A stretch of 57,486 nt of DNA from Flavobacteriales bacterium (GTDB lineage: Bacteria > Bacteroidota > Bacteroidia > Flavobacteriales_G > Salibacteraceae), in the NCBI GenBank assembly GCA_013204105.1, contig JABMOM010000007.1, positions 1-57,486 on the forward strand, read 5' to 3'. The translations under genes were made by a program, and so were the position numbers. This document shows positions 526 to 54,450 of this stretch, piece by piece. The notes beneath the pieces were generated by a model. It saw only the letters and a list, made by a program, of their open reading frames with translations. It was not told the origin of the DNA and did not search any database. Positions within the stretch are counted from its first letter, which is position 1. The number at the start of each line of letters is the position of its first letter.

Positions 526-1248
526 ATGGAAGTGTTTCTCCAGCCTGAAGCATGGATCGCACTGCTCACCCTGACCTTGCTGGAGATTGTATTGGGGATT
601 GATAACATCATCTTCATATCCATCATTTCCAATAAACTTCCTGAAGCTCAGCAGCCAAAGGCAAGAATGATCGGCCTCAGTTTGGCCCTTATCGTTCGGG
701 TGTTTATGTTGATGGGGATCTCTTGGCTGATCGGCCTTACAGACCCTTTGTTCTCCCTTTTCGGAATGGACTTCAGTGGGCGCAATTTGATATTATTGGG
801 GGGTGGTCTGTTTCTCTTAGCGAAAAGCACGACGGAGATTCACGCAAAAATGAATCAAATGGAACACGAAGAAACCTCTTCAAAGGCCAAGAATGCTTTC
901 GCGAGTATCATCTTTCAAATCGTTTTGCTCGATATCGTTTTCTCTTTTGACAGCATTCTTACAGCGGTTGGAATGTCGAATGATCTGCCCGTGATGATCG
1001 TTGCGGTGGTGATTGCAATGATCATCATGATGATCTTCGCAGGCCGCATCAGCGTTTTCATCAACGGTCAGCCTACGCTTCAAATTCTCGCCCTTTCTTT
1101 TCTCATTTTAATCGGATTCATGTTGATTGTAGAGGGCCTTCCCTTGCAAGAAATCCATGTTCCGAAGGGTTACATCTACTTCGCAGTATTCTTCTCCCTT
1201 GCGGTGGAAGCGCTGAATATGCGGATGCGGCGGAAGAAGAAAGGGTGA
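526..1248 (+). CDS. TerC family integral membrane protein
   Basis: A 240-residue polytopic membrane protein of the TerC family (tellurium-resistance TerC/Alx/YoaE type). These proteins are linked to metal-ion handling, in several bacteria Mn2+ efflux or metallation of exported proteins. The family hallmark, acidic residues inside membrane helices, is visible in EIVLGIDNIIF (E20, D26) and DIVFSFDSI (D136, D142). About seven hydrophobic segments are present, and the C-terminus is basic (RMRRKKKG), as expected for a cytoplasmic end. I chose ATG 526 because MEVFLQPEAW matches the usual TerC start; ATG 508 lies inside the upstream gene. The exact substrate cannot be read from sequence. Confidence 0.9.
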   Translation: MEVFLQPEAWIALLTLTLLEIVLGIDNIIFISIISNKLPEAQQPKARMIGLSLALIVRVFMLMGISWLIGLTDPLFSLFGMDFSGRNLILLGGGLFLLAKSTTEIHAKMNQMEHEETSSKAKNAFASIIFQIVLLDIVFSFDSILTAVGMSNDLPVMIVAVVIAMIIMMIFAGRISVFINGQPTLQILALSFLILIGFMLIVEGLPLQEIHVPKGYIYFAVFFSLAVEALNMRMRRKKKG

Positions 1249-1298
1249 TAATTGCAGGGATTTTTGCAATTTAGTCAGCCGAACTAAACCCATCCTGA

Positions 1299-2954
1299 GT
1301 GCCTACCCATATTGACCTTGAATTTTCTGATCAGTCTTTTGAGGACTGTGACAGCAGTGTGATCATCTCCATCACTGATTTGCACGGACGACATCAAGAG
1401 CGCGTTCGTCTTGGAGTGGTGCTTGCTGAAACACTTTATGAACGCATTGATAAGGGAGAAGGCGTTAATCTGGATATGCGATACGTGAAAGATTTTTCAC
1501 TGAAAAAGTATCGACAATCCAGGAAAGTGGGGGAAGATCAGGAAGTAGAGCTACAAGACTTTTCTGCTAGTTGGGCCTACTTTGATGGTATCGAACCGAC
1601 GGACTTGAGCCATGTGCGATTTACGGGGTCAGCCACTTCTTTTACGCATTGTTTGTTTGGCGATTGTCCGCTTTCTTTTTTCAATTCGAAGTTCCACGCC
1701 GACATTACAGACTTTTCACTCAGTCACTTCGGGGCAGGAGTGGCCAATTTTCAGTATGCAGAATTCAAGTCTAAATCGATCAATTTCGACCACGCCATTT
1801 TTGAATCGGGAGACGTTCACTTCGTCAATTGCGAATTTGGAGATTGCAAGGTGAGTTTCCGTGAAGTGAATTTCGGTGAAGGAAAGGTTGATTTCCATTA
1901 CACACGATTTGGGGAAGGTCCAATCACCTTTGATAAGTGCATTTTTGGGGGTGGAGAGGTTTCCTTCAAGCGCGTAGACTTCGGCGATGGAAAAGTGGAC
2001 TTCAAGCGCAGTCATTTTGGCGATGGAGAGATTGATTTCTCCGAAGCCGACTTCCGGGAGGGTAAAGTAATCTTCAGGTCAGCGATTTTCGGAGATGGCA
2101 ACATCAATTTCCAAGAATGCATCTCCCAGTCGGAATTCATTTTCGACAATGCAGAATTCGGTACGGGTAGTCTTTCGTTTTTCAGGTCTCAAGCAACTCG
2201 GCTTTCCTTCAGGCTTTGCCATTTTAACAACTACGTTGACCTGCGCGTAAAAGAGGTCAAGCAAATCGACCTTTCGCATACCATAGTGCGCGACATCATC
2301 GACTTGATGCCAACAGATAGTGCTCCTGTTCATATGGAGCAAATGCTGTTCAACGGCATGCGTAACCTTGGCCACCTCTACATTGACTGGGAACGAAATG
2401 ATGTGCTCAACTTGATCAATTCGCAAGTCGAGACTTCTAATCGTGAGAAATCACAGCAACTCCTCATCTTGAAGGAGACATACAATTCTACGGGTCGCTA
2501 TTCGGATGAAGACCGGGCATACGTTTCGTACAAGCGATTTGAACTAAAGGCAGACTTGGAATACTCGCTCAAGCATCGTCCAGGAAGTGCTATTTGGGCC
2601 TACCCAACGGCCTTTTTCAAGTGGTTGCTATTCGATAAGATCGGATTGTATGCAACCGAGCCCTTGCGCGTGCTTTTTTCGGTATCAGTGATCTACACGT
2701 TGTTCAGCCTGCTCTACCTGGTATTGCCGTTTGTAGCCGATACGTATATCGACACGGGAGGTGGAAGCGAATTAGCCGACTTGAATCCGGTCGCCAAAGC
2801 CTTCTATTACAGCGCCATCACCTTTCTCACCATTGGCTATGGTGAATTCTACCCCATTGGTGTCATGCGCTTCTTCGCGAGCGTTGAAGGCTACGTCGGG
2901 GTATTTTTGATGGGCTACTTCTCAGTCGCCTTTGTGCGCAAGGTGTTGAGGTGA
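1299..2954 (+). CDS. Beta-solenoid repeat protein fused to a two-TM potassium-channel pore
   Basis: A 551-residue product starting at GTG. Residues 1-105 form a non-repetitive N-terminal domain. Residues 108-298 hold about sixteen near-perfect 12-residue repeats of pattern F-G-x-G-x-[VI]-x-F-x-x-x-x, for example FGDGKVDFKRSH followed by FGDGEIDFSEAD. A helical linker follows. The C-terminal ~95 residues contain a hydrophobic helix (around 463-485), a pore helix, the K+ selectivity filter TIGYG (511-515) and a last membrane helix: an Ion_trans_2 type pore. It is probably an inner-membrane K+-selective channel with a cytoplasmic solenoid sensor. The repeats recall pentapeptide-repeat proteins, but the period is 12, not 5 or 20. 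Gating signal and assembly are unknown. Confidence 0.85.
   Translation: MPTHIDLEFSDQSFEDCDSSVIISITDLHGRHQERVRLGVVLAETLYERIDKGEGVNLDMRYVKDFSLKKYRQSRKVGEDQEVELQDFSASWAYFDGIEPTDLSHVRFTGSATSFTHCLFGDCPLSFFNSKFHADITDFSLSHFGAGVANFQYAEFKSKSINFDHAIFESGDVHFVNCEFGDCKVSFREVNFGEGKVDFHYTRFGEGPITFDKCIFGGGEVSFKRVDFGDGKVDFKRSHFGDGEIDFSEADFREGKVIFRSAIFGDGNINFQECISQSEFIFDNAEFGTGSLSFFRSQATRLSFRLCHFNNYVDLRVKEVKQIDLSHTIVRDIIDLMPTDSAPVHMEQMLFNGMRNLGHLYIDWERNDVLNLINSQVETSNREKSQQLLILKETYNSTGRYSDEDRAYVSYKRFELKADLEYSLKHRPGSAIWAYPTAFFKWLLFDKIGLYATEPLRVLFSVSVIYTLFSLLYLVLPFVADTYIDTGGGSELADLNPVAKAFYYSAITFLTIGYGEFYPIGVMRFFASVEGYVGVFLMGYFSVAFVRKVLR
1620..2192 (+). repeat. 36-bp coding repeats (12-residue units)
   Basis: Fourteen consecutive 12-codon units begin at residue 108 of the channel gene. 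A degenerate 11-codon unit and one final 12-codon unit follow. DNA identity between units is moderate (recurring words such as ttcggngatgga), so the array is old or kept at protein level rather than freshly duplicated. Confidence 0.85.
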
Positions 2955-2961
2955 TCCGAGG

Positions 2962-4152
2962 TTAAGCCCTGCGACGCTGCTCGTTCAGGAAGTTTCTTAG
3001 ATCCTCTGCTTCTCGCTGGTCACCGCCCTTGAAGGCGTCGTTGCCTTGAACGGTATTCAGGTATTCGTCTGCCTTGTCAAAGTCTTCGAGAATGATGTGG
3101 ATCAAGGCTAGGTTGATGTAGATACCGGCGCCGACCTTGTTATTGACCCGTGCCTTTTTATCTACTAAGTCAAGCGCTCCGAGCTCCTCATTCCACGTGG
3201 CGATGGCCTCTGTTAGTTTGCCTTTGGCATTGTCTTCATTGATGGATAGCTCTTGCAGCCCTTGCTGAGCTTGAAGGGATGCCTTGTCCAAAGCAGAATA
3301 ATCAAGTTTCTTTCCTTTCGCCGTGTAAATTGGGTCGATCCGCTCGTTCCATCCGTAACCCAGTTCGCTGTTCAGTTGATTTGAAATGTCTGCCATTATC
3401 AGGTTTCTCGCCGTCATTTTTTGAGCGTCCAACCAGCTGCTATACCCACCCGTGTTCATGAATTGGTCGTAAGACGGGCGGTCCATTTTCTGGGTAGAAT
3501 AGGTCAGTACATTGTCGGCCAGTTGCGATGAAATCTGCATGACCTGCTGTCCATTCTGATCGGTAACCCGTACATCCATTGGAATTTTAATCGTCGCTGT
3601 TTTGTACCATTTTTCATTCGAAGCAGCCTCTTTCTCAATGACGATGTAATTGGGCATGGTGATGGCTATTGTATATCCTCCGCTGTTGACCTTGTTAAAT
3701 CCTTGAAGATCGATTCCGCTCATCAACTCCCCATCTGAAGGAATGTCATTTCTAATCTGAGGTTCTGGGATATATCTGCGCTCAACGTAGCGCTTTTCCG
3801 GTTTGCCATCATCATCGAGCAAAATGCCCGAAAGAATTTTCGCACCGGCACCTTGATCGTTATAGGCTTCAAGCGCTGCGGCGTATTCTTCGTCGGCCGC
3901 CTTCCTGTCGACTTCATATTCTTCATCAGCCTTCTTGTTGGCCTCATCAAAGGCAGCCATTTCGGCAAAGTAGGATTCTGCAAAAGGAATGTTCACCGAC
4001 ACGCTGTAGCTCCTATTTGCTTCAGGAGTTTTGGTGAGGGGTTTTCGAAAATAACTGTAGTTGGTTTTGTCGCTGGAAGCGCGTTGACCAAACGTCGGAA
4101 GGTTGATTGCGAAGAGCAGTAAGATGCTGATGAGGAAGGAGAATCGTAACAT
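2962..4152 (-). CDS. Secreted protein of unknown function with a C-terminal TPR-like hairpin
   Basis: A 396-residue protein with a clear signal peptide, MLRFSFLISILLLFAINLPT, ending near FGQ; the start at 4152 was chosen for this reason over the longer open frame to 4209. The mature protein has a short charged helical stretch rich in E, A, D and K (NKKADEEYEVDRKAADEEY) and a middle region with beta character. Its C-terminal ~60 residues (YINLALIHIILEDFDKADEYL) look like one or two TPR helices. I do not recognise a family. Likely periplasmic or outer-membrane associated. It is convergent with the channel gene (stops 7 nt apart). Confidence 0.75.
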   Translation of the reverse strand: MLRFSFLISILLLFAINLPTFGQRASSDKTNYSYFRKPLTKTPEANRSYSVSVNIPFAESYFAEMAAFDEANKKADEEYEVDRKAADEEYAAALEAYNDQGAGAKILSGILLDDDGKPEKRYVERRYIPEPQIRNDIPSDGELMSGIDLQGFNKVNSGGYTIAITMPNYIVIEKEAASNEKWYKTATIKIPMDVRVTDQNGQQVMQISSQLADNVLTYSTQKMDRPSYDQFMNTGGYSSWLDAQKMTARNLIMADISNQLNSELGYGWNERIDPIYTAKGKKLDYSALDKASLQAQQGLQELSINEDNAKGKLTEAIATWNEELGALDLVDKKARVNNKVGAGIYINLALIHIILEDFDKADEYLNTVQGNDAFKGGDQREAEDLRNFLNEQRRRA

Positions 4153-21487: not shown

Positions 21488-22771
21488 ATGAGCGAATTGA
21501 ATGACACCCCTTTAGCAGAACGTCTGCGACCCAAAACCTTGGACCAATACATCGGTCAGGAGGCCATCGTTGGTCCTGACGGTCCCATTCGTTTGTCGAT
21601 CAAGGCAGGGAGCTTACCATCGATCATTTTTTGGGGACCTCCGGGCGTGGGTAAAACTACGTTGGCGCAAATCCTCGCGGATGAGCTGGACCGACCCATG
21701 TTTTCTCTCAGTGCCATCAGCAGCGGCGTGAAAGATGTGCGTGCCGTGATTGAACAAGCATCTAGGAAAGACCTGCTGAGCACCAAGAAGCCGATCCTTT
21801 TCATTGGCGAGATCCATCGTTTCAGCAAGAGTCAACAAGACAGTCTTTTGGGTGCGGTGGAGAAGGGGGTAGTAACCTTGATTGGAGCTACCACCGAGAA
21901 CCCATCCTTCGAGGTCATCCCTGCCCTCTTGTCGCGCTGCCAGGTCTATGTACTAGAGGGTTTTGGGGTGGATGAATTGGAGCGCATTCTTCAGCGCGCT
22001 TTGGAGCAAGACGAATGGCTCAAGGAACAAAACCTGAAGATCGAAGAGAAGAAGGCCTTGTTTCAGCTGAGCGGGGGTGATGGAAGGAAGTTGCTCAATA
22101 CCTTGGAGCTCGTTGCACAGTCGGCCATTGTAGATCAAAAGCCCATCACGGACGATTTTGTCAAGCGCGTGGTAAAGCAAAAGATGGCGCGCTACGATAA
22201 GACCGGCGAGCAGCATTACGACATCATATCTGCGTTCATCAAGAGTATTCGAGGAAGCGACCCCAATGCCTCGGTGTATTGGCTGGCGCGCATGATCGAA
22301 GGGGGAGAAGACCCGATGTTCATCGCGAGGCGGCTGCTGATTTTGGCGAGCGAAGACATCGGGCTTGCGAATCCAACAGCCTTGGTCATGGCCAACAATT
22401 GCTACCAAGCAGTGCACTCCATTGGCTATCCTGAATGTCGCCTGGTCTTGTCGCAAACCACCGTGTATTTAGCAACCTCGCCAAAGAGCAATTCCACCTA
22501 CAAGGCGATCAATGAGGCCCAAGCCAAGGTAAGGGAGACGGGAGATCTCTCCGTTCCACTCCCGATTCGAAATGCCCCAACCAAGTTGATGAAAGAGCTT
22601 GGCTATGGGGAAGACTACAAGTACGCCCACAGCTACGGCGGCAATTTCGTCGATCACGAATTCCTCCCAGACGAGATCAAAGGGGCGAAGTTCTACGAGC
22701 CAGCAGACAACGCCAGAGAGAAGGGGGTGAGGGAGTTTTTGAAGGCGAGGTGGAAGAAGTATTTTTATTAG
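21488..22771 (+). CDS. rarA: Replication-associated recombination protein RarA (MgsA), altered Walker B
   Basis: A 427-residue AAA+ ATPase related to clamp loaders and RuvB that acts at stalled replication forks. Walker [13 protein letters not shown], sensor 1 [12 protein letters not shown], the arginine-finger region LLSRCQVY and the C-terminal tetramerisation region ([33 protein letters not shown]) are all conserved. The Walker B segment reads [10 protein letters not shown]; the usual Asp of ILFIDEIHRF is Gly (codon GGC, 21806-21808, one base from GAC). The catalytic Glu remains. This could lower Mg2+/ATP handling, or be a sequencing error or strain mutation. Confidence 0.95.
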
Positions 22772-22990
22772 GTGCTAGGGGCTGGTCAATTAGCTCATTA
22801 GCTCATTAGCTCATTGAAGTCGCAGTTGAAGTTGCAGTTGCAGTTGCAGTTGAGGTTGAAAATTGGCTGCTTGCAGTGAAAAACCCGAACTAATCTTTGC
22901 TCTTCCATCTTTCTGCACTGCAAAAGGTTCCCCTTACTCCCAACTGCGCACTGCCTACTGCCTACTCCCCCCAACTCCCCGCTCACAAGC
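22772..22990. repeat. Composite phrase-repeat block downstream of rarA
   Basis: No gene here. The block starts right at the rarA stop codon. It contains GGGGCTGG, then three tandem octamers ATTAGCTC (22789-22812). Six hexamers of GCAGTT type follow (22822-22857: GCAGTT, GAAGTT, three GCAGTT, GAGGTT). Later come two 7-mers ACTGCCT (22950-22963) with flanking CTCCC words. The same words in the same order occur inverted at 52.72-52.83 kb, so this is one member of a dispersed repeat family, not random low complexity. Confidence 0.75.
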
Positions 22991-51585: not shown

Positions 51586-52443
51586 ATGCGCAGTACCTAC
51601 TTTTTTATCCTACCCATCTTGATCTTCATCGCGGCTTGCGGCAACCCAGAAGCCGAAAAGGCCAAGCAAAAGGCCAAGGAAGATTCCTTACTTCAAGCGC
51701 AGCAAGACTCACTGTTGGACGTATTTCGCGGAGAGTTGGAGACCATTTCATCTATGGTCAACGAAGTCTCCGTTAGAAATGGCGTGCTGAAGTTTGATTC
51801 TTCTGAAGGAGTAGTCCTGAGTAAGGAGGTCATCATGAAGCAGGTACAATCGCTCGATCAATTGCTCGCCAACAACCAGGATCAGCTGAACGACTTGTAC
51901 AAGCGCATGAAACAAAGCAAGGTCAAGAATGACGAGCTGGAAGGCCTGGTTAAGAACATGCAGTCGCGTTTGGCTGAGCGAGAAGAACAAATCGACCAAT
52001 TGATGGCGATGCTGGCTGACAAGGACATCCTGATCGAGAACATCAAGATGGCGGTGGACAGTTTCCGAAGAACCAATATTTCGCTCACCGAAGACCTCAT
52101 CCAGATGGACGAGGAGATGCACTTGGTGCACTATGTAGTGGGGGAGAATAAAGAGTTGAAGGAAAAGGGCATCATCACCAAAGAAGGTGGGATCCTGGGC
52201 ATTGGCGGTACCAAGAAATTGGACGCGTCACAACTCGATACGGCACTTTTCACCGTTGTAGACCAACGTGAATTACAGGAGATTCCAATCTACTCGAAAA
52301 AAGCCAAGGTGATCACCAATCACCCAGAGTCTTCCTACGAATGGGCAATGGATAGCGATGGCCAAGTGGAGAGCCTCAGCATCAAGGATCGCAAGCGCTT
52401 TTGGAGCGTTTCGGATTATTTGGTGATTGAGGTTTCTAATTAG
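51586..52443 (+). CDS. Lipoprotein with a long coiled coil
   Basis: A 285-residue protein with signal and lipobox (ILIFIAACG, C18). Residues ~25-185 are almost entirely heptad-like helix (EAEKAKQKAKEDSLLQAQQD, LDQLLANNQDQLNDLYKRMK, MQSRLAEREEQIDQLMAMLA). A small globular beta domain follows (FTVVDQRELQEIPIYSKKAK, HPESSYEWAMDSDGQVESLS, VSDYLVIEVS). This layout is common in Bacteroidota lipoproteins thought to bridge envelope layers, but no function is assigned. Its TAG stop is the first three bases of an 18-bp inverted-repeat arm. Confidence 0.8.
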   Translation: MRSTYFFILPILIFIAACGNPEAEKAKQKAKEDSLLQAQQDSLLDVFRGELETISSMVNEVSVRNGVLKFDSSEGVVLSKEVIMKQVQSLDQLLANNQDQLNDLYKRMKQSKVKNDELEGLVKNMQSRLAEREEQIDQLMAMLADKDILIENIKMAVDSFRRTNISLTEDLIQMDEEMHLVHYVVGENKELKEKGIITKEGGILGIGGTKKLDASQLDTALFTVVDQRELQEIPIYSKKAKVITNHPESSYEWAMDSDGQVESLSIKDRKRFWSVSDYLVIEVSN

Positions 52444-52830
52444 GGAGTAGTTGATTAGGGAGTAGGGAATAGGGAGTGGTGAAGAGTGAAAAACTAAAAG
52501 TGAAAAGTGAATGGGGAGTGGGGAGTTCCTCCCAGGATGTCAGTTCGAGTGATTACGATGCTGGCTTTCCCTACCGGATGTCAGTTCGAGTGATTTCGCC
52601 GTAGGCGTGATTGTATCGAGAACCCTCCCTCTAAGTCGAGTGTAAGGCTTCTCGATACGATCGCGCAAGTTATGTTTTGGCTAGTTTATTTCGTGTGCGA
52701 TCACTCGAAGTGACAGCTTTTGGGAACCTCAACCTCAACCTCAACTGCAAATTCATTGAGCTAATGCACTAATGAGCTGATTCTCTAATTGACTAATCCT
52801 CTAATCAACTACTCCCTACTCCCCAGCCCC
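52441..52830. repeat. Composite inverted-repeat element (18-bp arms, phrase arrays, inner REP-like hairpin)
   Basis: No gene in this stretch. Perfect 18-bp inverted arms, TAGGGAGTAGTTGATTAG at 52441-52458 and its reverse complement at 52801-52818, enclose the block. On the left are GGGAGTAGGGAATAGGGAGTGG-type words. On the right are three AACCTC hexamers plus AACTGC (52725-52748) and an array of NNNATTAG-type octamers (read on the minus strand, about 52752-52812). A REP-like hairpin sits in the centre. The left arm starts with the stop codon of the lipoprotein gene. Confidence 0.75.
52535..52715. repeat. REP/MITE-like nested hairpin with a duplicated half-site
   Basis: Outer arms TGTCAGTTCGAGTGAT (52579-52594) and ATCACTCGAAGTGACA (52700-52715) differ by one base from perfect complementarity. 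Inner arms ATTGTATCGAGAA (52610-52622) and TTCTCGATACGAT (52649-52661) also have one mismatch. A 20-bp half, GGATGTCAGTTCGAGTGATT, occurs twice in direct orientation (52535-52554 and 52576-52595). TTCGAGTGATTTCGCC...TATCGAGAA is a word set I recognise as recurrent in Flavobacteriia intergenic regions. Confidence 0.75.
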
Positions 52831-52931
52831 CACTAATTCCATCGTCCAAATCAACATTTTTATCGAAAACATCCTTCGAACCAAATCTTTTTGGTCTGTT
52901 ATACGTCTTTTATATCAGACACTTAGCAACC

Positions 52932-53345
52932 ATGGGCATTTTCAGATTTTTCCGTTACAAATACATCCTCAGCAGCCGTCGGCGCAAGTATGCTTCGCTG
53001 GCCGTTTCTATTGCGCTTGCCCACGCATCGTTTGGTTCGGTCAAGTACCGATCATTGGGAAATGGCATGGCCGATATTCAGCTTTCATTGGATCAGGATC
53101 AGCAGTTTCGCTTGCACTTCAACCGACTAGACGAGGCCAAGGAATACGTCATGAAAGGCAAGTGGACGGTATCCGACGATAACTACGTCCTAAAATTCGG
53201 AAGATCCAAGCTGGACGTTCCCACGCTGTTCTCGAGCAACACCGGTTTGAAGAAGGCCAGTTTCATTCAAGATAAACGAACGGTGAAGATTCCTTCCACG
53301 CGGAATGGGGTGGTGATTTGGGGGATCTTCTGTCCGAAGGCCTGA
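52932..53345 (+). CDS. Small protein of unknown function
   Basis: A 137-residue protein with a very basic N-terminus (MGIFRFFRYKYILSSRRRKY) and a short hydrophobic segment (ASLAVSIALAHASFGSV) that may be a membrane anchor or non-classical signal. A beta-rich C-terminal ~85 residues follows (ADIQLSLDQDQQFRLHFNRL, GKWTVSDDNYVLKFGRSKLD), resembling small lipocalin-like META/HslJ-type strands in outline only. No family assigned. It sits between two repeat elements, with the S23 element beginning 14 nt after its stop, and is convergent with the S23 gene. Confidence 0.65.
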   Translation: MGIFRFFRYKYILSSRRRKYASLAVSIALAHASFGSVKYRSLGNGMADIQLSLDQDQQFRLHFNRLDEAKEYVMKGKWTVSDDNYVLKFGRSKLDVPTLFSSNTGLKKASFIQDKRTVKIPSTRNGVVIWGIFCPKA

Positions 53346-53416
53346 CTTTGGCAGGGTATGGTGACTGGTGACTGGTGACTGGAGATTGGTTGGGCTATCA
53401 CTGGCCGTTATTTAGT

Positions 53417-53785
53417 TCACTCACCTCTTTTTGATTTTCTTAGGTAACGGATGTAGCCGTTGAGCATTTTCATGATGAGCGCCTTTTCAGCTATCAACTG
53501 ACTATACTCAGTCTCGTCGATATATCCCTCTTCGAGTGCGACGGTGAGATGGTCGTGGGTTTCATCCAGAGATCCTCGCGATATTCTGCAGAATCTTATA
53601 TTTTCTTGGTAGTGGTACCTACCGTGCCCTTCCGCTATCTGAGCAGTAACCGACCTACTGGATCGGATGATTTGATCGCGCAACCTGAACTTCTCCTCCA
53701 CAGGGAGTCGTTTCGCAATGGCTGAAATCTTTCTCCGGAAAACTGTGGCCCTCTGATAAACTTCCAATTCCTCGAATGTTCCCAT
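53417..53785 (-). CDS. Four-helix-bundle protein (S23/IVP family)
   Basis: A 122-residue helical protein of the family first seen as the product of 23S rRNA intervening sequences and structurally related to the Avd accessory protein of diversity-generating retroelements. The family blocks are visible: FEELEVYQRATVFRRKISAI, FRLRDQIIRSSRSVTAQIAEG, ENIRFCRISRGSLDETHDHL and EYSQLIAEKALIMKMLNGYI. It probably forms a pentameric barrel that binds nucleic acid. It is not within an rRNA gene here, and no reverse transcriptase or template repeat is present. It lies inside a 20-bp inverted repeat. Confidence 0.92.
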   Translation of the reverse strand: MGTFEELEVYQRATVFRRKISAIAKRLPVEEKFRLRDQIIRSSRSVTAQIAEGHGRYHYQENIRFCRISRGSLDETHDHLTVALEEGYIDETEYSQLIAEKALIMKMLNGYIRYLRKSKRGE

Positions 53786-53799
53786 GGCAATCTCTTACT

Positions 53800-53807
53800 C
53801 AAATCTA
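53800..53807 (-). promoter_or_regulatory. -7 box of the S23 gene
   Basis: Minus-strand TAGATTTG, exact TAnnTTTG, 14 nt before the ATG at 53785 and inside the inverted-repeat unit: the cassette carries its own promoter. Confidence 0.5.
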
Positions 53808-53922
53808 GATTGGAAAATGGGTTAATCAGTTGCAGAATAAGTAAGCTGCAAGGCCAGATTTTGAAATATTCTCAGCTAATCCATACTCTCCAAGTCACCA
53901 ATCACCAGTCACCAGTCACCAA

Positions 53923-54324
53923 TCACGACCTACCATCCTTCGAAGAAGCGCCCTCTTCATACTTAATAAACATATTAATCCAAATAGCCCGGCCCAGCCG
54001 AAAGGTCAAGGGCGCGAGGATAACGATGCCTAAAATGATCCCGATCAGGTATTCATGTAATTCCCAGGGACTTCCGAGTACCCACATGACCATGAACATG
54101 GCAATTGCGATGGCTACGGTGAGACCGTAATTGACGTACATGGCACCATAGAAGAAAGAGGGTTCGAGTTGATAGATCTGTCCGCACTCGGTGCAATGGT
54201 GGGGCATGTCAAAGATCTTAGAGATCTTATACGGGTTCCTGTCCTCAAACAATTCGCCTTTGTGGCAGTGGGGGCATTTTTGATGGAGGATGGAATAAAA
54301 CTTGGTTCCTTGGAGCACGGTCAT
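53923..54324 (-). CDS. DUF983 membrane protein with zinc-ribbon cysteines
   Basis: A 133-residue protein of family DUF983. The N-terminus has two CxxC pairs, HQKCPHCHKGELF and HHCTECGQIY, which would form a zinc ribbon on the cytoplasmic side, followed by two transmembrane helices (near 55-80 and 90-110) and a charged tail ending in KYEEGASSKDGRS. ATG 54324 fits the family start (MTVLQGTKFYSILHQ). The stop codon (minus-strand TGA at 53923-53925) lies 1 nt from the S23-element arm, so the last residues may come from repeat sequence. Function of the family is unknown. Confidence 0.88.
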   Translation of the reverse strand: MTVLQGTKFYSILHQKCPHCHKGELFEDRNPYKISKIFDMPHHCTECGQIYQLEPSFFYGAMYVNYGLTVAIAIAMFMVMWVLGSPWELHEYLIGIILGIVILAPLTFRLGRAIWINMFIKYEEGASSKDGRS

Positions 54325-54450
54325 GGGTATTGTGAGTGGCAAAGTTCGGGAAAGAGATGTTGATTTAGGGGATATTGAACACCTAAATCAAGCATTCTTG
54401 TCGATCATAAGATTTGTGAAGCGCAACCAGAGCAACGCGGCTACTATGCG

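Follow-up and report, generated by a model that had tools for sequence, protein, structure and literature searches.

Why is a gene of the S23/IVP family, a relative of the open reading frame (ORF) carried by 23S rRNA intervening sequences (IVSs), packaged between inverted repeats in a spacer between two protein-coding genes? This question is raised by a locus in a 57,486-nt stretch of DNA (hereafter, the window) from contig JABMOM010000007.1 of a Flavobacteriales bacterium of the Salibacteraceae (GCA_013204105.1). Comparisons with S23 loci of the same family, of other phyla and of plasmids suggested that the feature is probably a miniature mobile genetic element of ca. 0.4–0.6 kb, with inverted heptamer arrays as its ends and S23 as its sole gene. 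The locus comprises the following features.

53359–53378, + strand: exact 20-bp inverted repeat, right copy, TGGTGACTGGTGACTGGTGA (read from the sequence)
53902–53921, − strand: exact 20-bp inverted repeat, left copy, the reverse complement of TGGTGACTGGTGACTGGTGA
53361–53390, + strand: right arm, downstream of S23, the inverted copy of the heptamer array
53897–53926, − strand: left arm, upstream of S23, four to five TGAYTGG heptamers
53417–53785, − strand: S23 (23S rRNA IVP) four-helix-bundle gene, 122 aa (PF05635 and TIGR02436)
53923–54342, − strand: DUF983 host gene, directly upstream of the cassette (PF06170, 33.4 bits over a cut-off of 22.6)
52932–53345, + strand: convergent 137-aa host gene ending at the cassette (ORF)
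53800–53807, − strand: TAGATTTG, proposed as a promoter box, not significant by motif count

An S23 gene enclosed by two heptamer arrays

The exact 20-bp inverted arms around a single S23 gene, reported in a first-pass annotation made from the letters alone, are present. When extended, the inverted pair covers 30 nt with 93% complementarity, and its arms lie 506 nt apart. Read inward, each arm consists of four regular in-phase units of the TGACTGG/TGATTGG type, and Tandem Repeats Finder reported a period of 7 with 4.6 and 5.1 copies in the two arms. The 14-mer TGGTGACTGGTGAC (≤ 1 mismatch) occurred five times in the 3.1-Mb genome, every time within these two arms, and had no occurrence there when read backwards. 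Related but distinct heptamer arrays were found elsewhere in the genome.

The enclosed ORF belongs to the S23 family (PF05635: 111.4 bits, cut-off 33.8; TIGR02436: 106.5 bits, cut-off 24), and the solved relatives 2gsc and 2rld contain five chains apiece. No other ORF of ≥ 60 aa is contained between the arms; one of 106 aa begins in the cassette but continues beyond it through DUF983, on the strand opposite to that gene. The S23 ORF and the terminal inverted repeats are the structural marks of an IVS, and no recombinase of the kind that defines a DNA transposon or insertion sequence is encoded in the cassette. Because it lies between two protein genes and not in rRNA, the cassette of the window cannot be called an rRNA IVS, yet it is built like one. 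A search of 50,697 phage records at E 1e-5 returned no match to the window S23 protein.

The flanking genes had been described as two convergent ones. This is correct for the 137-aa gene on the + strand, which had no Pfam or NCBIfam match, but the DUF983 gene shares the strand of S23, and its stop codon is overlapped by the left arm. A promoter belonging to the cassette had also been proposed. The box TAGATTTG does exist, but the general motif TANNTTTG (TAnnTTTG) had 21 occurrences in the window where 31.5 were expected, and the box was absent by eye upstream of S23 in the orthologous locus of another family genome (G020).

Inverted arms at S23 genes of the family and beyond

PF05635 had 83 matches in 29 of the 35 family genomes collected. 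Two of these, each the second half of a broken gene, were dropped, as was one of the remaining 81 with too short a flank; the removal of sub-cut-off matches and ORFs of < 100 aa reduced the 81 to 70 S23 genes in 28 genomes. Arms were scored by aligning the upstream 250 nt to the reverse-complemented downstream flank; this flank was begun 40 nt inside the gene, because an arm may include the stop codon. This shift was adopted after the arms of Nostoc plasmids (see below) had been seen.

With the shift, 42 of the 70 S23 genes had inverted flanks scoring ≥ 26, a score reached by 9 of the 316 ordinary ORFs (p 1e-28); at ≥ 34, the counts were 21 and 1, respectively, and omitting the shift gave 19 and 0 at that threshold. 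In 600-nt flanks, 31 of 80 true pairs scored ≥ 30, whereas mis-paired flanks of different loci did so in 10 of 944 cases. The check proposed in the first-pass annotation, on the flanks of other S23 genes, thus spoke for its proposal. Direct flank matches were rarer than inverted ones (≥ 34: 7 of 70 S23 genes and 1 of 316 controls). A tandem period of 7 was in strong excess at the S23 loci (33% compared with 1.6% of controls) and was the only strong one, with a slight excess at lags of 6, 8 and 12.

Outside the family, six close S23 queries against named genomes returned at least 587 relatives, of which the best 80 were kept. These were mostly from Bacteroidota, with a few each from Clostridia, Geobacter, Vreelandella, Anaerolineae, Ignavibacteriae and others. 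Inverted arms scoring ≥ 26 were present at 62 of these best 80 loci, a set without a matched control: four of the control ORFs chosen there proved to be further S23 genes (PF05635, 101.8–140.2 bits) and were moved to the S23 set, and the named-locus controls (5 of 68 at ≥ 34, with the four S23 genes within the 68) were excluded from the final comparison. Very long heptamer arrays of ca. 27–30 copies were noted beside S23 genes in Vreelandella (L217) and Geobacter (L230).

A sample of 12 of the 27 S23-bearing plasmid records (ten cyanobacterial, one Riemerella and one Azospirillum) was also scored; all 12 gave 32–64 for inverted arms, in a set without a control of its own. In two of the cyanobacterial plasmids (L274 and L276), the S23 cassette lies between cas6 and cas4, type I-D CRISPR genes. 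The Azospirillum lipoferum 4B record (L284) carries S23 (2001–2354) inside a 23S rRNA gene (large-subunit match, 792–3990), at what we take to be helix 45. Its inverted arms (region 1970–2410) score 47 and have a heptameric look, with a modest lag-7 score of 10.5 on either side. Near 20 chosen loci, no rRNA was found, only three tRNAs.

Gene and both arms arrive as one unit

The Nostoc plasmids pNsp_c and pC052_D have a near-identical backbone, in which two neighbouring spacers hold S23 cassettes that differ: the spacer filled in one plasmid is empty in the other, and vice versa. Among ten plasmid records holding this backbone gene, site A was filled in three (one with an interrupted S23), reduced to a 3-nt spacer in five and occupied by another ORF in two; site B was filled in one and measured 0–4 nt in nine. 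At both sites, the neighbouring genes retain their stop and start codons. The empty sites contain no array of the arriving type; therefore, the arms and the gene arrive together. Comparison of filled and empty Nostoc sites accordingly shows terminal inverted repeats brought in by the insert itself, as expected of a transposon. At the window locus, the empty relatives are more distant.

At the window site, ten DUF983 loci were compared by eye, and some DUF983 orthologues in relatives have no S23 behind them. The site is filled in the genome of the window (G000) and in G020, with different left-arm heptamers. In G017, the two genes flanking the window cassette are separated by ca. 40 nt without an insert, and in six further genomes (G011, G012, G030, G021, G010 and G015) ca. 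0–20 nt without an insert precede the convergent gene; in G013, DUF983 has a different neighbour. Empty sites in relatives, which the first-pass annotation had proposed to look for, are therefore present in several family genomes, and the element probably entered between DUF983 and the convergent gene in the common ancestor of G000 and G020.

A second spacer behaves similarly. It lies between what is presumably hgd and a gene termed hppd here, which matches glyoxalase/dioxygenase models and falls below the cut-off of the HPPD model. Of its 35 matches, 22 were inspected: S23 is present without stops in G018, G021, G013 and G034 and broken in G019 and G008, and the spacer measures 8–11 nt without S23 in G010, G011, G012 and G014, with the rest of those inspected also lacking S23. 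In G000 and G020, the spacer of ca. 90 nt includes a stretch resembling one leftover arm.

Judged from these filled and empty sites, the gene together with both arms is the inserted unit, which agrees with the earlier proposal of a minimal mobile cassette without a transposase. Copies of the element occupy several sites, and some keep the arms without an intact S23. The interrupted site-A S23 of pNPM1 contains an insert of ca. 210 nt with identical heptamer arms and no S23, and two further loci (L297 and L298) keep their arms and have lost most of S23. When copies of one subtype at different sites were compared by eye, their similarity extended over the whole stretch bounded by the outermost heptamers, and the left arm had 3–5 units.

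Heptamers belong to the locus

Without the 40-nt shift, arms scoring ≥ 26 were found at 98 of 154 S23 loci (70 from the family, 80 named and 4 found in passing). The 5′ arm had more G than C at 82 of these 98 loci and more C than G at 11. A common-phase profile of 150 arrays from 100 loci (L217 excluded) read H-N-N-T-W-R-G inward, with a log-likelihood of 330.8 compared with at most 273.6 in 20 column permutations. Copy numbers peaked at 4 (47 arrays) and 5 (36 arrays). Published heptamers were tried as fits to this profile and rejected, as they ranged from the 10th to the 95th percentile and none stood out.

The TGGTGAC word of the window was not common to S23 loci; each locus has its own heptamer, and the two arms of one locus agree at 85% (43 loci). 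Inverted matches occur within a locus and are rare between loci. Heptamer similarity was 0.37 for S23 pairs of the same genome (n = 25) compared with 0.44 for pairs from different genomes and sites (n = 4397). Same-genome pairs are no more alike, and therefore the host does not set the heptamer. At different sites, heptamer identity rose from 0.42 to 0.52 for S23 proteins of 50%–60% identity and to 0.56 for those of 60%–80% (6 pairs). This correlation was reached by 1 of 1000 permutations, and by 2 of 1000 when the genomes were also required to differ. The suggestion that the arms are binding sites of S23 thereby gains indirect support from a weak correlation, and S23 likely recognises the heptamer arms, as far as sequence comparison can indicate.

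Surroundings and selection

Among family loci, 47 of 65 have both neighbours on the S23 strand, as do 70 of 78 among the named loci; the figure for ordinary family ORFs is 140 of 307. The S23 gene evolves under purifying selection, with a median ratio of nonsynonymous to synonymous polymorphism (pN/pS) of 0.19 over 38 close pairs. Seven Flavobacteriaceae loci (L229, L245, L247, L253, L254, L264 and L269) share one spacer and TATTAAG arms, and their neighbours resemble what we assume to be fadJ and fadA; one thiolase and one 3HCDH/ECH neighbour were tested. A 3HCDH/ECH–thiolase spacer also holds S23 in the genus of the window (G017), with a different heptamer.

Heptamer arrays lacking S23

Arrays without S23 also occur in the genome of the window. 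One such region lies in the window.

52441–52840, no strand assigned: S23-less region with GGGAGTA-type heptamer arrays; weak inverted counterpart (mate score 26)
52430–52860: composite repeat covering this region, with a TGTCAGTTCGAGTGATT-type core besides its GGGAGTA and CTAATC heptamer arrays

This region had 52 matches in its own genome, itself included, many of them on contigs C38, C3, C7, C25 and C46, and is possibly a non-autonomous derivative or a composite repeat. In a 457,486-base sample (the window and 20 further stretches), seven period-7 arrays were detected; an inverted mate scoring ≥ 26 was found for the two arms of the present locus and for the S23-less array at 52453. Another spacer of the window (22770–22990) contains ATTAGCTC, TTGCAG and ACTGCCT arrays, with no S23 seen. 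Elsewhere in the genome, an S23-less pair of GGGATTAG/TGATTGG arrays (L308, 1040–1555; mate score 33–34) lies between two convergent ORFs.

Comparison with described systems

The IVS of Coxiella burnetii is described with tandem heptamers (GACAGAT) directly before the S23p ATG, in strain-variable copy number, and with a 28-bp terminal inverted repeat or stem excised by RNase III (PMC4990558). In the available passages of that article, S23p is regarded as probably not expressed, and older ideas of IVSs as remnants of transposition or mobile elements are cited within the context of rRNA (PMC4990558). The elements described here share the S23 ORF, the terminal inverted repeats and the heptamers with the IVS as those passages present it, and one armed copy (L284) is itself inserted in rRNA. 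They differ in occupying numerous sites between protein genes across several phyla, in their site-specific heptamers and arm-only derivatives, and in mismatch counts that speak against a selected RNA stem (see below).

Heptamer repeats are known in their own right as GGGAATC in Xanthomonas and GGGGA(T/C)T in Nostoc (PMC4692102) and as TAACTGA arrays in Beggiatoaceae (PMC4679880). Xanthomonas has 70 (Xcc) and 75 (Xac) inverted array pairs, and the majority of arrays have four units; the passages available report no association with mobile elements (PMC4692102). The S23 elements resemble these repeats, as far as the passages describe them, in being intergenic arrays of 7-nt units, which in Xanthomonas are often inverted pairs. 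They differ in carrying S23, a word that a search did not find in the main texts of PMC4692102 and PMC4679880. Beyond the Coxiella IVS (PMC4990558), none of the matches listed linked S23 to heptamer repeats or to inserts outside rRNA, in a search that left most subscription literature outside. Cyanobacterial short tandemly repeated repetitive (STRR) sequences are likewise heptamer repeats.

Miniature inverted-repeat transposable elements (MITEs) and repetitive extragenic palindromic (REP) elements with their associated transposases (RAYT) are likewise short inverted-repeat units with gene-less copies. In contrast to both, the S23 elements end in heptamer arrays that differ from site to site. 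The Y1 transposase, tried as a partner, was rejected: PF01797 was found in 20 of the 35 family genomes and had no match in 12 of the 29 S23-bearing ones, other transposase families not being searched. A reverse transcriptase partner was also rejected, as PF00078 (RVT_1) matched in only 4 of the 35 genomes and was missing from 26 of the 29 S23-bearing ones. The window S23 is a four-helix-bundle relative of Avd, the partner of reverse transcriptase in diversity-generating retroelements; its score against NF033474 was 20.9 bits, below the cut-off of 80, and its own genome had no RVT_1 match.

Alternative explanations

If the arms existed for an RNA stem, they would base-pair within the transcript of the operon, from which RNase III would excise the S23 message. 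The copy within a 23S rRNA gene and the prevalence of inserts in the sense of their neighbours are consistent with such an RNA-level intervening sequence. This predicts that mismatches between the arms should favour G-U pairs; after exclusion of L217 and one family locus (G026:C51), however, 78 mismatches would still pair in RNA compared with 117 that would not (p 0.006), the reverse of the prediction. Such a deficit of wobble-pairing mismatches gives no indication that an RNA stem is selected for. The stem as a selected feature was therefore rejected, the idea of a self-structured RNA unit loses its footing, and the RNA-level explanation is unlikely. A slightly better case, although still an improbable one, can be made for a domesticated regulatory unit, in which S23 would bind its own arms and tune the host operon, with slow, host-driven gain and loss and no transposition. 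The low pN/pS, the several Flavobacterium that keep one spacer and heptamer and the use of a 3HCDH/ECH–thiolase spacer, with another heptamer, in the genus of the window too would fit this explanation, whereas the patchy filled and empty sites on near-identical plasmids, the broken S23 copies and the arm-keeping derivatives argue against it.

Heptamer arrays might also accumulate in spacers as independent simple repeats, with S23 merely among them. The many S23-less arrays of the genome, and the two main texts on heptamer repeats that do not mention S23, could be read in this way. Nevertheless, inverted matches link the two arms of one locus and only seldom those of different loci, flanks of this type are uncommon at ordinary genes, and the Nostoc arrays come with the gene; we consider this explanation highly improbable. 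Equally little can be said for retro-mobility, in which S23 would partner a reverse transcriptase as Avd does. Its weak resemblance to Avd and a sub-cut-off S23-like gene adjoining a reverse transcriptase in G019 favour it, but this Avd-like gene has no heptamer arms (score 18), and most S23-bearing genomes lack RVT_1, as noted above.

The miniature mobile element remains the explanation that we regard as probable, and several observations weigh against it. Transposition was not seen directly, and among the recombinase candidates neither the reverse transcriptase nor the Y1 transposase is consistently present in the family genomes; the transposase may have been lost after insertion. At the three junctions read by eye, possible target-site duplications measured about 5 nt, 3 nt and 0–1 nt, without a common length. 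Arms were absent even at a score of 26 from 28 of the 70 family S23 genes, and the second S23 of the genome of the window (C44) had no clear arms within 250 nt (score 21), with 46 reached in 600-nt flanks. In the plasmid locus L274, the direct flank match (125) exceeded the inverted one (62). The H-N-N-T-W-R-G profile is loose (ranked among all heptamer classes, the heptamer of the window falls at the 33rd percentile), and the link between heptamer and S23 is weak, as 39 of 1000 permutations reached the correlation when the phase was left free. The first-pass annotation had named arms occurring as often without an S23 gene as evidence against its proposal, and this was partly found: the genome holds many S23-less heptamer arrays in repeat-rich stretches, a few of them as inverted pairs, although these were drawn from repeat-matching stretches and are not an unbiased count. 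Finally, S23 is strongly constrained by purifying selection and has long stayed in a single spacer in Flavobacterium, which is as compatible with a useful gene as with a selfish one; such constraint over a long stay suggests that some copies serve the host.

Proposed mechanism and implications

As a mobile element, the unit would settle in intergenic spacers, mostly in runs of co-directional genes and in the sense of its neighbours. Through this orientation, S23 would be readable from the host transcript. An element of this kind also sits in a 23S rRNA gene (L284), like a classical IVS. An S23 oligomer could bind the heptamer arrays, perhaps with one heptamer per subunit, and hold the two element ends together, while cutting and joining might be performed by a host enzyme. 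The arrays would lengthen and shorten by slippage, allowing their sequence to drift while the two arms stay matched.

A broader and more tentative proposal, which we hold to be somewhat less probable than not, is that S23/heptamer elements form a distinct class of mobile element across phyla. A pentameric S23 ring would read about five heptamers per end, one per subunit, as a subtype-specific word, and the protein and its word would be all that the element encodes. Under this proposal, rRNA IVSs might be its rRNA-inserted members, and many heptamer repeats of cyanobacteria, Xanthomonas and Bacteroidota might be its S23-less descendants.

These results open a direct question, namely, whether each S23 protein binds its own heptamer word. 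They describe a very small mobile unit with changing ends and no recombinase of its own, and they offer a possible answer to the role of the widespread S23/IVP gene outside rRNA and, possibly, to the origin of many bacterial heptamer repeats.
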